From Luteimicrobium xylanilyticum (GTDB lineage Bacteria > Actinomycetota > Actinomycetes > Actinomycetales > Cellulomonadaceae), in NCBI RefSeq assembly GCF_009429125.1, contig NZ_CP045529.1, positions 992,001-1,056,000 on the forward strand: a stretch of DNA of 64,000 bases, read 5' to 3'. Made by a program: the position numbers and the translations under genes. A model generated the notes under the pieces. That model was not told where the DNA came from. It saw only the letters and a program-made list of their open reading frames with translations, and ran no database searches. Shown here one piece after another: positions 6,893-64,000 of this stretch (positions are counted from its first letter, which is position 1; the number at the start of each line of letters is the position of its first letter).

Positions 6893-7195
6893 TCAGCCGA
6901 CCCGGCTGAGCGCCTGACGGTCGCGCTCCGTGAGGATCGCCGTGCGCTCGTCCTCCGTCAGGCCGCCCCAGACCCCGTACGGCTCACGGACGCGCAGTGC
7001 GTGCTCGCGGCACAGCTCCATGACCGGGCAGCTCGCGCACACAGCCTTCGCGGCCTCGTCGCGCCTGCGCCTGTTCGATCCCCGCTCGCCCTCCGGGTGG
7101 AAGAACACCTCGTCACCGGTCTGGCGGCAAGCCCCCTGGTACTGCCATTCCCACAGGTCCATCACGGGGCCGGGGAGGCGGGAGATCTCAGTCAT
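6893..7195 (-). CDS. WhiB-family transcriptional regulator (WhiD/WhiB3-like)
   Basis: A 100-residue [4Fe-4S]-binding Wbl protein. The four cluster ligands are Cys23, Cys53, Cys56 and Cys62 (CxxC within AVCASCPVMELC), and the GVWGG turn that contacts sigma-A region 4 is at about 74-78. The N-terminus, SRLPGPVMDLWEWQYQGAC, and HPEGERG strongly resemble the WhiD/WhiB3 subgroup, which links redox state or differentiation to transcription in Streptomyces and Mycobacterium. The ATG at 7195 has GAAAGGA upstream. It is divergent from a MerR-family gene and convergent with groES. Confidence 0.9.
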   Translation of the reverse strand: MTEISRLPGPVMDLWEWQYQGACRQTGDEVFFHPEGERGSNRRRRDEAAKAVCASCPVMELCREHALRVREPYGVWGGLTEDERTAILTERDRQALSRVG

Positions 7196-59604: not shown

Positions 59605-61797
59605 TCACGGCTCCAGCACGACGAGCTGCTGCGTGGCCCGGGTCATCGCGACGTAGCGGTCGACGGCAGCCGTGACCGCGCCCTCGCCGGCGCCGAAGCC
59701 GTCGGGGTCCACCAGGACCACGAGGTCGAACTCGAGGCCCTTCGCAGTGACGGGGTCGAGCCACTGCACCCGCTCCCGGTCGGGCTCGCGGGAGCCCCGC
59801 CGCTCGCGGTCGGGCGCCACCCCGACGACGCACGCCACGCCGTCGTGCGCGGCGAGCCAGCCGTCGAGGACGTCGTCGAGCTCCGTGGTCCGGCCGCGGG
59901 CGACGGGGAGCCCGCTCGACCGCACCGACGTCGGGACGTTGGCGTCGGGGATCGCGGCACGGATCACGGGTTCGGCCTCCTCCATGACCTCCGACGGCGT
60001 CCGGTAGTTGATGCCGAGCCCGGCGATCCGGGCCCCGGAGATCCCGGCGCCCGCGAGCCGGTCCTGCCAGGACTGCGTGAAGCCCTGCCGTGCCTGCGCG
60101 CGGTCGCCGACGATCGTGAGGCTGCGCGACGGACACCGCGCGAGGAGCAGCTGCCACTCGGCGTCCGTGAGCTCCTGTGCCTCGTCGACGACGACGTGCG
60201 CGAAGGGCCCCGCGAGCCGGTCGGCGTCGGCCCGGGGCGCGCCGTCGGCGGCGCCGAGCGCGTCGCGCAGGTCGGCACCGCGCAGCATGCCCATGACCTG
60301 CATCTCGGAGCCGTCGGTCTCGATCAGGTCCGCCACGACGTCGTCCATCCGGGCCGCTGCAGCGTCGGCCTCGGCGCGCTCGCGGCGCCGTCGACGCGAC
60401 GCGGCGGGGTCGCCCAGCCGCTGCCGGGCCGCGTCGAGGAAGGGCAGGTCGGCCGTGGTCCACGCCTGCGGCTCGCGGCGCTGCAACGCCCGGACCTCGT
60501 CCGACGACAGCCACGGCGCGCACAGCCGCAGGAACGCGGGCACGGACCACAGGTCGCCGACGACGTCCGCCGCGTCGAGCAGCGGCCACGCCTCACCGAG
60601 CGCGTCCCGGAGCTCGGCGTCCCGCTCGAGCGCGCGACGCACCTGTTCGCGCGGCGCCTCGTCGTCGTGCTTGTCGACGAGGATCGCGACGAGCGCGTCC
60701 CAGACCTCGTCGCGGCCGTCGTTGTGCGGCGTGCCGGGCTCGGGCGCGGCGAAGGCGTCCGCCCAGTCGTCGGCCGTGAGGCGCACGTCGGCCCACGGCG
60801 TCGACACGGTGCGCCCGCGCGTCGGCGGCTCCTCGTAGAACCGGATCCCGGTCTCGACGGCCCGCACCAGGTCGGCCGACGCCTTGAGCCGCGCCACGTC
60901 GGAGTCGGTCTCGACGCCGGCGCGCGCACCCTCGGGCACGAGGTCGCGCAGGGTCGCGAGCTGCACGCCGTCCTCCCCGAGGCTCGGCAGGACGTCCGCC
61001 ACGTAGTCGAGGTACGGCTGGTGCGGCCCGACGACGAGCACCCCACCGCGCCGCGCGTCCACCAGCGGCTCCGCGTACAGGAGGTAGGCGGCGCGGTGCA
61101 GCGCGACCACCGTCTTCCCGGTGCCGGGTCCGCCGTCGACGACGAGCGCGCCGCGAGCCCCGGCCCGGATGACGGCGTCCTGGTCGGCGGCGAGCGTCCC
61201 GAGCACGTCGCGCATACGCGCCGACCGCGCGCCGCCGAGGCTCGCGACGAAGGCGGACCGGTCGTCGAGCGAGGCGGTGCTCAGCGGGCCGGGGACGCCG
61301 TCGAGGCCGTGCGTCGCGAAGACCTCGTCCCAGTAGTCGGTGATCTGTCCGGCGGTCCAGCGGTACCGGCGCCGGCTCGCGAGACCCATCGGGTCGGCGA
61401 GCGTCGCGCCGAAGAACGGCTCGGCCGCGGGGGAACGCCAGTCCACGAGGAGCCGGCGGCCGTCGTCGTCGGTCAGCCCGAGCCGCCCGACGTACACGGG
61501 CTCAGGGTCGCCTGCGAGGACCATCCGGCCGAGGCACAGGTCGACGCCGAACCGGCGTAGCGTGCGCAGGCGCGCGGTCAGGCGGTGGACCTCCTGGTCG
61601 CGGTCGAGGGCCTGCTGGCCGGCGCCCGCGGGTGCGCGCCGCGCGGCGTCGAGACGGGCGTCGACGCCGGCGACGGTTTGCTCGAGGCAGGCGGCGACGT
61701 CGGCGAGGTGCTGCGCGTCGTGCGCGACGAGCGCCGGATCGGCCTTGGCGGCGAGGTGGTGGGGGAGGGCGAACAGGTCCGTGGAGGGGTGGGTCAC
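59605..61797 (-). CDS. helR: RNA polymerase recycling motor ATPase HelR
   Basis: A 730-residue UvrD-like P-loop protein of the actinobacterial HelD/HelR type. An N-terminal coiled-coil arm (about residues 20-80) precedes Walker A GGPGTGKT (222-229), the HVVVDEAQEL box, GDRAQARQGF and the C-terminal RYVAMTRATQQLVVLEP. These proteins bind RNA polymerase, eject it from stalled complexes and, for HelR, displace rifamycin and give resistance. A rifamycin-associated element lies about 66 nt upstream, strongly supporting the HelR rather than generic helicase assignment. The GTG at 61797 begins VTHPSTDLFALP. Confidence 0.9.
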   Translation of the reverse strand: MTHPSTDLFALPHHLAAKADPALVAHDAQHLADVAACLEQTVAGVDARLDAARRAPAGAGQQALDRDQEVHRLTARLRTLRRFGVDLCLGRMVLAGDPEPVYVGRLGLTDDDGRRLLVDWRSPAAEPFFGATLADPMGLASRRRYRWTAGQITDYWDEVFATHGLDGVPGPLSTASLDDRSAFVASLGGARSARMRDVLGTLAADQDAVIRAGARGALVVDGGPGTGKTVVALHRAAYLLYAEPLVDARRGGVLVVGPHQPYLDYVADVLPSLGEDGVQLATLRDLVPEGARAGVETDSDVARLKASADLVRAVETGIRFYEEPPTRGRTVSTPWADVRLTADDWADAFAAPEPGTPHNDGRDEVWDALVAILVDKHDDEAPREQVRRALERDAELRDALGEAWPLLDAADVVGDLWSVPAFLRLCAPWLSSDEVRALQRREPQAWTTADLPFLDAARQRLGDPAASRRRRRERAEADAAAARMDDVVADLIETDGSEMQVMGMLRGADLRDALGAADGAPRADADRLAGPFAHVVVDEAQELTDAEWQLLLARCPSRSLTIVGDRAQARQGFTQSWQDRLAGAGISGARIAGLGINYRTPSEVMEEAEPVIRAAIPDANVPTSVRSSGLPVARGRTTELDDVLDGWLAAHDGVACVVGVAPDRERRGSREPDRERVQWLDPVTAKGLEFDLVVLVDPDGFGAGEGAVTAAVDRYVAMTRATQQLVVLEP

Positions 61798-61862
61798 GTC
61801 TCGGCTTCCGCTCGGGGGGTCGCGGCCGGCCGGGCCGCGGCCTGCGATTCTCCGCCGCCACC

Positions 61863-61884
61863 GGGGTCTTGCCGCAAGAGCCCC
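61863..61884. promoter_or_regulatory. Rifamycin-associated element (RAE) between helR and a GNAT gene
   Basis: The arms GGGGTCTTG (61863-61871) and CAAGAGCCCC (61875-61884) are separated by CCG. On the minus strand the core reads CTTGCGGCAAG flanked by G4 and C4, matching the RAE consensus found upstream of rifamycin-inducible resistance genes. It lies between two divergent genes and contains TTG-type -35 hexamers in both directions. Confidence 0.85.
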
Positions 61885-61897
61885 CCTGCGCTATACG
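61869..61897 (+). promoter_or_regulatory. Promoter of the GNAT gene, -35 inside the RAE
   Basis: TTGCCG (61869-61874, within the RAE) and TATACG (61892-61897) are separated by exactly 17 nt. Transcription would start near 61904, reading into the GNAT gene. Confidence 0.7.
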
Positions 61898-61944
61898 TTG
61901 AAAATGGAGGGGTGAGCGTCGACCCGCGGCAGGATGGCCCGTCC

Positions 61945-62712
61945 ATGACGACGTCGACCGTGACGACGGCGGACTGCGAACGGGTCCAGAGCGATTGGTT
62001 CCGGCTCCGAGCGACCGCGCTCGGCGGCACGGTCAGCGACGACGACGGCTTCGTGTGGACCGACGGTCCCGACGGCCTCAACCTCCTCTTCCCACGGACC
62101 CTCACGCCGGCGGCGGTGCGCCACGGCCTCGACCGTGCGCGCGCCGTCGGGCGGACGTCGGTCGGGGCGTGGCTCGGGCCGGAGGTCGACCCGACGGCGT
62201 TGGCCGAGGCGGGGTTCGAGCGCGGCTGGTCGCCGTGGTGGATGGTCGCGGACGTCGACGAGGTCGTCGGAGCCGCTCCGGGGCCCGACCCGCGCGTCGC
62301 GCTCGAGGAGGACACCGACGACTACGGGGGCGAGCACGCCGCGTACCGCGACCAGCTCGCGCTCGCCCGGCTGCGCCCGCGGGTCGCCTGGTACGCGGCG
62401 GCGCACGTCGGCCCCGACCACCGGTTCGCCGGGCGCGCGTGGTCGTTCCTCGACGGCGGCCTCGCGGGCGTGTTCGACATGGCGGTCTGGTCGCCGTTTC
62501 GCCGGCGCGGGCTCGGGACGGCGCTGCTCGGCGCGGTCTGTGCGGCTGCGCGCGACGCGGGGGCGACGCACGCCGTCCTCAACGCGACCCCCGAGGGCAG
62601 GCTGCTGTACGAGACGTGCGGGTTCCGGAGGATCGGCACGGGCGCGACGTGGTGGTGGCGTGCGCCCGCCGGGCCGGCGGGGGAGGGCCCGGGCGTGGGC
62701 GGCGACGCCTAG
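61945..62712 (+). CDS. GNAT-family acetyltransferase divergent from helR
   Basis: A 255-residue protein. The N-terminal half (DCERVQSDWFRLRATALGG, GVAWLGPEV-like segment, WSPWWMVADV) is a degenerate GNAT-like domain. The C-terminal half is a recognisable GNAT fold with GVFDMAVWSPFRRRGLGTALLGAVCAAARDAG (acetyl-CoA loop) and LNATPEGRLLYETCGFRRIG. The ATG at 61945 has AGGA upstream; a GTG at 61912 in frame is an alternative. Its promoter uses the rifamycin-associated element shared with helR, so rifamycin-inducible expression is predicted. The substrate is unknown. The pcrA-like gene starts 14 nt downstream. Confidence 0.75.
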   Translation: MTTSTVTTADCERVQSDWFRLRATALGGTVSDDDGFVWTDGPDGLNLLFPRTLTPAAVRHGLDRARAVGRTSVGAWLGPEVDPTALAEAGFERGWSPWWMVADVDEVVGAAPGPDPRVALEEDTDDYGGEHAAYRDQLALARLRPRVAWYAAAHVGPDHRFAGRAWSFLDGGLAGVFDMAVWSPFRRRGLGTALLGAVCAAARDAGATHAVLNATPEGRLLYETCGFRRIGTGATWWWRAPAGPAGEGPGVGGDA

Positions 62713-62725
62713 GCTTGGCTCCGAG

Positions 62726-64000
62726 ATGAACCCGCTCTTCGAGAACCTTCCCCTGCCCGGCCTCAGCACCTTCGGCGCGACCACGACCGGGCTCTCCGGC
62801 GTCCCGGACGAGACGCGCCTGCCCTCCGGAGGCGCCTCCGCGTGCCCGCTGCCCGACGACGAGGCCCAGCCCTCGTACGCGACCCCGCCCCGCGCGTCGG
62901 GCGGGGGAGCGGCCGGTGGCCGACGGGACCCGGAGGTCCTGCTCGAGGGGCTCAACCCGCAGCAGCGCGAGGCCGTCGTGCACGAGGGCGGGCAGCTCCT
63001 CATCGTCGCCGGCGCGGGATCGGGCAAGACGCGCGTGCTCACGCACCGCATCGCGTACGCCCTCGCGACCGGGCGTGCGACGCCCGGCGAGGTCCTCGCC
63101 ATCACCTTCACCAACAAGGCTGCCGCGGAGATGCGGGAGCGCGTCGCGGCGCTCGTCGGGCCGGTCGCCCGGCGCATGTGGGTCTCGACGTTCCACTCCG
63201 CGTGCGTGCGCATCCTGCGGGCCGAGCACGACCACCTCGGCCTCAAGTCGACGTTCTCGATCTACGACGCCGCCGACAGCCAGCGCCTCGTCACGCTCGT
63301 GTGCCGCGAGCTGGACCTCGACGTCAAGAAGTACCCGCCGCGCTCGCTCGCCAACAAGATCTCCGACCTCAAGAACGAGCTGGTCGACCCCGAGACGTAC
63401 CGGACGACGTCGGGGGCCTCGAGCGACAGTGCGAACCAGTTCGACGCGGTCCTCGCCGATGTGTACGTGCGGTACCAGCAGCGGCTCCAGCAGGCGCACG
63501 CCCTCGACTTCGACGACCTCATCATGACGACGGTCAACCTGCTGCAGGCGTTCCCGGCGGTTGCCGAGCACTACCGCCGCCGGTTCCGGCACATCCTCGT
63601 CGACGAGTACCAGGACACGAACCACGCCCAGTACGTGCTCGTGCGCGAGCTCGCCGGCGTCGGCGCCGAGGAGACCGAGGCGGTCGAAGGAGACGACCGG
63701 GAGCAGCATCACGCGGCCCCCGTCCCGCCCGCCGAGCTCACCGTCGTCGGCGACGCCGACCAGTCCATCTACGCGTTCCGCGGCGCCACGATCCGCAACA
63801 TCCTCGAGTTCGAGGCCGACTACCCGGACGCGCGGACCATCCTGCTCGAGCAGAACTACCGGTCCACCCAGACCATCCTGTCCGCGGCCAACGCGGTGAT
63901 CGCGCGCAACCCCGACCGCAAGCCCAAGCGGCTGTGGACCGACTCGGGCGCCGGGACCCAGATCATCGGCTACGTCGCGGACAACGAGCACGAGGAAGCC
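62726..64000 (+). CDS. ATP-dependent DNA helicase UvrD/PcrA, 5' part (cut by window end)
   Basis: A continuous reading frame of 425 codons from the ATG at 62726 to the window edge, so the C-terminal half is missing from view. After a Pro/Ser-rich N-terminus of about 75 residues come LNPQQREAVVHEGG (Q motif), Walker A VAGAGSGKTRVL, TFTNKAAAEMRERV, STFHSACVRILR, the DEYQDTN Walker B box, GDADQSIYAFRGA and LEQNYRST. These are superfamily 1A helicase motifs Q to IV of PcrA/UvrD, which acts in repair and in removing stalled RNA polymerase or RecA. A TAGGCT -10 box (62710-62715) overlaps the stop codon of the preceding gene. Confidence 0.93.
   Translation, partial: MNPLFENLPLPGLSTFGATTTGLSGVPDETRLPSGGASACPLPDDEAQPSYATPPRASGGGAAGGRRDPEVLLEGLNPQQREAVVHEGGQLLIVAGAGSGKTRVLTHRIAYALATGRATPGEVLAITFTNKAAAEMRERVAALVGPVARRMWVSTFHSACVRILRAEHDHLGLKSTFSIYDAADSQRLVTLVCRELDLDVKKYPPRSLANKISDLKNELVDPETYRTTSGASSDSANQFDAVLADVYVRYQQRLQQAHALDFDDLIMTTVNLLQAFPAVAEHYRRRFRHILVDEYQDTNHAQYVLVRELAGVGAEETEAVEGDDREQHHAAPVPPAELTVVGDADQSIYAFRGATIRNILEFEADYPDARTILLEQNYRSTQTILSAANAVIARNPDRKPKRLWTDSGAGTQIIGYVADNEHEEA

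Follow-up and report, generated by a model that had tools for sequence, protein, structure and literature searches.

Rifamycin-associated elements (RAEs) lie upstream of helR, rox, arr, rph and rgt in Actinobacteria, and published accounts of how they sense rifamycins usually suppose an unknown transcription factor (PMC12802891, PMC10719064). In B. subtilis, an antisense promoter interferes with the sense promoter of helD until rifampicin stalls RNA polymerase on it (PMC12802891), and at bidirectional promoters of E. coli raising transcription in one direction tends to lower it in the other (PMC12825309). Here we analyse a RAE found within a stretch of 64,000 nucleotides from Luteimicrobium xylanilyticum (contig NZ_CP045529.1, positions 992,001 to 1,056,000; hereafter the window), where it lies between helR and a divergent gene for a GNAT acetyltransferase. 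Comparison with other RAE loci makes it likely that the RAE is a two-way promoter whose outward arm (pointing away from the resistance gene) often ends in a hairpin, and that the GNAT gene of Luteimicrobium is a passenger on this arm.

A RAE lies between helR and a divergent GNAT gene

The helR–GNAT intergenic region contains the palindrome GGGTCTTGCCGCAAGAGCC, centred on 61873. An earlier reading of the window, made from the letters alone (the sequence-only reading), had proposed an RAE-type palindrome here, and the present analysis agrees, placing it at 61864-61882 (Table 1). On the minus strand the palindrome differs from GGGGCTTGCGGCAAGCCCC at three positions, a level of similarity for which 0.04 chance matches are expected per window, and it has one mismatch to a two-fold degenerate consensus. 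A scan of the 4.2-Mb genome identified it as the sole site within one mismatch of this degenerate consensus. It is a genuine RAE both in its form, a 19-bp palindrome with a CTTGCSGCAAG core, and in its setting upstream of helR, where it overlaps the helR -35 and where the -35 and -10 elements are positioned as in 40 aligned loci. A near-match at 7117-7135 of the window (three mismatches to the consensus) was considered as a second RAE and set aside; both -10 elements are absent and it looks like a chance occurrence.

Gene calls throughout were made with a simple codon model. The helR product scored 1152.5 bits against NCBIfam NF041254 (curated cut-off 750), with nearly the whole model covered. 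The gene divergent from helR matched Pfam Acetyltransf_7 above the gathering score (E 6e-8), and its predicted structure has a GNAT fold. Its start codon is most likely the ATG at 61945, since Luteimicrobium album has the same leader, CGCGG(C)AGGATGG..CGTCCATG, with a reading frame that continues from this point.

Table 1. Features of the helR–RAE–GNAT–pcrA region, in coordinates of the window.
Feature	Position	Strand	Basis
RAE palindrome, shared -35 region of two divergent promoters	61864..61882		sequence comparison
Outward -35, TTGCCG	61869..61874	+	inside palindrome; position kept across 113 loci
Outward -10, TACGTT, toward GNAT	61894..61899	+	TANNNT at +21..+26 from centre; 107/113 RAEs
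Predicted outward transcription start, +33	61906	+	inferred; conserved G; hairpins at other loci begin +31 to +34
Possible ribosome-binding site, AGGATGG	61931..61937	+	common to L. album
GNAT acetyltransferase gene, 255 aa, two-domain (tandem-like) GNAT fold predicted	61945..62712	+	Pfam, predicted structure
helR -35, TTGCGG	61872..61877	-	overlaps outward -35
helR -10, GAGAAT	61847..61852	-	A and T invariant in 40/40 loci
helR, RNA polymerase protection ATPase	59605..61797	-	NCBIfam NF041254
Probable own -10 of pcrA, TAGGCT	62710..62715	+	overlaps GNAT stop codon
pcrA start (UvrD/PcrA helicase)	62726..64000	+	extends past window end

Promoter-like hexamers flank RAEs on both sides

The RAE served as the anchor for an alignment of 40 helR loci from the order, among them that of the window; one further helR locus had no recognisable RAE. 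With the loci read in the direction of helR, all 40 had A at position +22 and T at position +26 relative to the centre, giving a helR -10 of the form (C/G)ANNNT. Because the mirror positions on the opposite flank give TANNNT in the aligned RAEs (36, 37 and 38 of 40), the outward hexamer of the window was assigned as TACGTT (61894-61899) with a 19-bp spacer. The sequence-only reading had named the same outward -35, TTGCCG at 61869-61874 within the palindrome, and this is upheld. It had paired this element with TATACG, which does lie 17 nt from TTGCCG; however, the conserved hexamer begins two bases further on, and in the frame of TATACG the sixth base is T in just 1 of 73 loci. The 5′ end that it had put at 61904 is instead predicted at about 61906. 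The outward flank of the window is the usual RAE sequence, with nothing special to it.

A second set was drawn from 247 genomes of the class, in which RAEs were chosen by the core GGNCTTGCSGCAAGNCC alone to avoid circularity; 73 were read, and a reversed control pattern of the core was rare in the same genomes. TANNNT stood at exactly offset 21 on one side in 71 of the 73 core-selected RAEs; each of the remaining offsets between 8 and 44 had it in at most 2. NANNNT was present on both sides in at least 68 of 73, a lower bound as two loci end near the RAE. Phage-borne RAEs were discounted: in viral contigs with the RAE core only the core matched, and both -10 flanks were found in 0 of 42.

When loci were divided by their outward neighbour, TANNNT was present in 55/60 with a convergent gene, in 27/28 with a divergent gene within 250 nt and in 19/19 with a divergent gene further off. 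Since the hexamer is retained even where no gene follows, the outward promoter is not specific to GNAT. The earlier proposal that the RAE provides the -35 of a promoter aimed at GNAT holds as a link in the sequence; its further claim, that GNAT is a new rifamycin-responsive function, is not supported, since the outward promoter is general to RAEs, with or without a downstream gene. By comparison across loci the promoter toward GNAT appears to be real, its putative -10 being assigned from conservation. The symmetry of the flanks could partly reflect an extended binding site for a regulator.

The outward flank often encodes a hairpin

The outward hairpin is a pattern established by both sequence and covariation. 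A stem beginning within +31 to +36 was detected in 44 of 111 loci, compared with 4.5% of shuffled sequences, and peaked at +33, the expected start site; within the class set a hairpin was detected on the outward side in 29/71 loci and on the sense side in 0/73; and the stems formed 6.74 of 7 pairs with their own partner, against at most 5.51 in 500 partner swaps, all figures that are strong without being exact probabilities because the loci are related by descent and are not independent. The hairpins start 5-8 nt past the outward -10, as a transcript would. At a looser threshold they were rarer where a divergent gene is close (8/28 versus 48/83, Fisher p 0.009). Enrichment in T along the T-rich tract is modest, averaging 3.5 T in 8 nt, and more than half of the loci lack a clear hairpin. 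None is clear in the window or in L. album, where the GNAT gene occupies that stretch.

A role as terminator of the upstream gene was rejected as the sole reason for the hairpin, the position of which is fixed to the RAE; hairpins are also present in 13 of 19 loci where the nearest outward gene is divergent and more than 250 nt away.

Two promoters may share one -35 region

We propose that the single palindrome would provide the -35 for two back-to-back promoters, with each -10 at an equal distance set by the 19-bp spacer. On the side of the resistance gene the putative -10 is weakened (CANNNT as a rule, GAGAAT here), and on the outward side it would conform to the consensus TANNNT. At many RAEs the first bases of the outward RNA are predicted to open a hairpin, which is often followed by T-rich DNA, and the RNA would probably stop at about 30 nt if the predicted start site and termination are correct. 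In the two Luteimicrobium species a GNAT leader appears in place of the hairpin stretch and GNAT is probably transcribed from the outward arm; it need not have any part against rifamycin. RNA polymerase could occupy the shared -35 in only one direction at a time, so that transcription of helR and of GNAT should compete. Given this arrangement and the behaviour of the E. coli bidirectional promoters, transcription of GNAT may fall or stay flat when helR is induced.

The outward promoter might additionally act as a sensor, holding back a sense promoter up to the point at which rifampicin causes polymerase to stall on the outward one, as the antisense promoter of B. subtilis helD does (PMC12802891). 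This would be an addition to the two-way promoter rather than a strict alternative, and we consider it possible but doubtful. The outward -10 is nearer to consensus than the sense -10 and is nearly universal, and the outward start would be faced by a sense P1 such as that reported in M. smegmatis, which lies about 20 bp upstream of the RAE. Against this, the RAE promoters point apart and not toward each other, overlapping the promoters abolished induction in B. subtilis, and no conserved sense P1 was seen in the alignment of 40 helR loci. Similarly tentative, and rather unlikely as a whole, is the idea that all RAEs work as two-way switches whose outward promoter, often with a self-terminating hairpin RNA, helps the cell to sense RNA polymerase bound by rifamycin without the need for a dedicated regulator protein, and that Luteimicrobium co-opted the outward arm for GNAT.

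A different account would deny the outward -10 any promoter function, the flanks forming an extended symmetric site for a dimeric regulator and GNAT being transcribed from elsewhere. The symmetric spacing around the palindrome fits a dimeric protein, and an unknown regulator is supposed in published accounts (PMC12802891, PMC10719064). However, the two flanks differ in a promoter-like manner (TANNNT versus CANNNT), and the hairpins keep the distance of a transcript from the outward -10 and are absent from the sense side, observations that make this account improbable and favour the two-way promoter.

Resistance genes lie on the side of the weaker -10

In 69 loci the resistance gene was located on the side with the weaker CANNNT, representing HelR (33), Rox-type monooxygenase (16), Rgt (7), Rph (5), Arr (5) and DrrA-type ABC protein (3), with each family named from one representative. 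Beyond these were two further Rgt loci with TANNNT on both sides (L152 and L167, with an Rgt-type glycosyltransferase beside each RAE) and two loci with no assigned class. At L185, a RAE with both -10 elements, the sense-side gene (called at 86 aa) matches no known target class. At three 4-kb RAE-centred loci (L176, L178 and L180; three genomes, one family) the sense side carries a DrrA-type ABC transporter ATPase, which may be an efflux component of the rifamycin regulon. The same module is present on named plasmids of Streptomyces clavuligerus (HelR), Nonomuraea gerenzanensis (HelR), Rhodococcus ruber (rox) and Streptomyces sp. MMBL 11-1 (rph).

No common family was found among the outward neighbours of RAEs. 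A gene adjoining a RAE is not thereby a resistance gene; a target can be told from a bystander by the side that it occupies, CANNNT for the one and TANNNT for the other.

The GNAT gene is probably a passenger

GNATs inactivate some antibiotics, and in two species this one stands directly on the outward RAE promoter. It could on these grounds have a function within the rifamycin regulon, being induced together with helR and acetylating the drug, RNA polymerase or HelR. The distribution of the gene argues otherwise. It was found beside a RAE only in the window genome and L. album; a third Luteimicrobium genome has the RAE, helR and a hairpin-like fold (MFE prediction) and lacks GNAT. Nine relatives at 53-65% identity, from five genomes of another genus of the same family, Streptantibioticus, Streptomyces, Microbacterium and a Catenulispora MAG, had neither a RAE nor helR in the DNA retrieved around them (5-10 kb each; the Streptomyces contig begins just before the gene, leaving the upstream side uncovered), and no relative was found at the other 111 RAE loci. 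The conserved link to RAE or helR expected of a rifamycin-inactivating enzyme was therefore not seen, and the shared -35 predicts competition, not co-induction. Membership of the regulon is thus very unlikely, and here too the earlier claim of a new rifamycin-responsive function finds no support. The sequence-only reading had also pointed to relatives that keep both genes as the place where loss of the RAE–GNAT link would count against it. This was not cleanly observed, in that the third genus member keeps RAE and helR without GNAT; the relatives that keep GNAT without a RAE are the stronger counter-evidence.

Because its relatives showed no RAE or helR nearby and the third Luteimicrobium lacks GNAT, the gene is probably a lineage-specific, recent passenger on the outward arm, as judged from the two genomes with RAE–GNAT. 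Its predicted structure has two domains (mean pLDDT 86) and is closest to tandem GNATs (PDB 2wpw, 7q3a and 7b3a PamZ; also 4ius), with which it shares a fold of two GNAT-like halves but an identity of only ~13-17%. Because these proteins vary in function, the structure points to no substrate.

In L. album, helR (L233, 2671-4176) was called only from about residue 200; the assembly is 81% complete, and a frameshift or sequencing error is possible. Downstream of GNAT, the stop codon overlaps the conserved -10-like TAGGCT of pcrA. The sequence GACGCCTAGGCT precedes pcrA also in the genus member without GNAT, where pcrA keeps its own -10, making a RAE-dependent GNAT-pcrA operon unlikely.

Comparison with known systems

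Bacterial bidirectional promoters (PMC12825309) resemble the RAE in that RNA polymerase can bind a single sequence in either of two mutually exclusive orientations. They share a -10, with starts mostly 10-23 bp apart, whereas the RAE has a separate -10 on either side of a shared -35 and predicted starts about 66 bp apart. The dual promoters of B. subtilis helD and pps (PMC12802891) likewise set a stronger antisense promoter beside the weaker promoter of a rifampicin-protection gene; theirs converge, whereas the two conserved RAE promoters diverge and share their -35.

With the RAEs described upstream of resistance genes in Actinobacteria, the loci compared here have in common the 19-bp palindrome, its overlap with the -35 and the target genes. 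The published accounts covered here describe the palindrome and sense promoters, and an outward promoter and 5′ hairpin go unmentioned in them; no description of the outward promoter was found in the open literature, the original RAE papers lying outside the scope of the search. Relative to the accounts covered, what is most likely new is the two-way orientation of the rifamycin switch, together with the RNA hairpin in which its outward arm often ends. A conserved outward promoter with a 5′ hairpin, present across several resistance families, offers a concrete, mutable part with which to approach the question of sensing.
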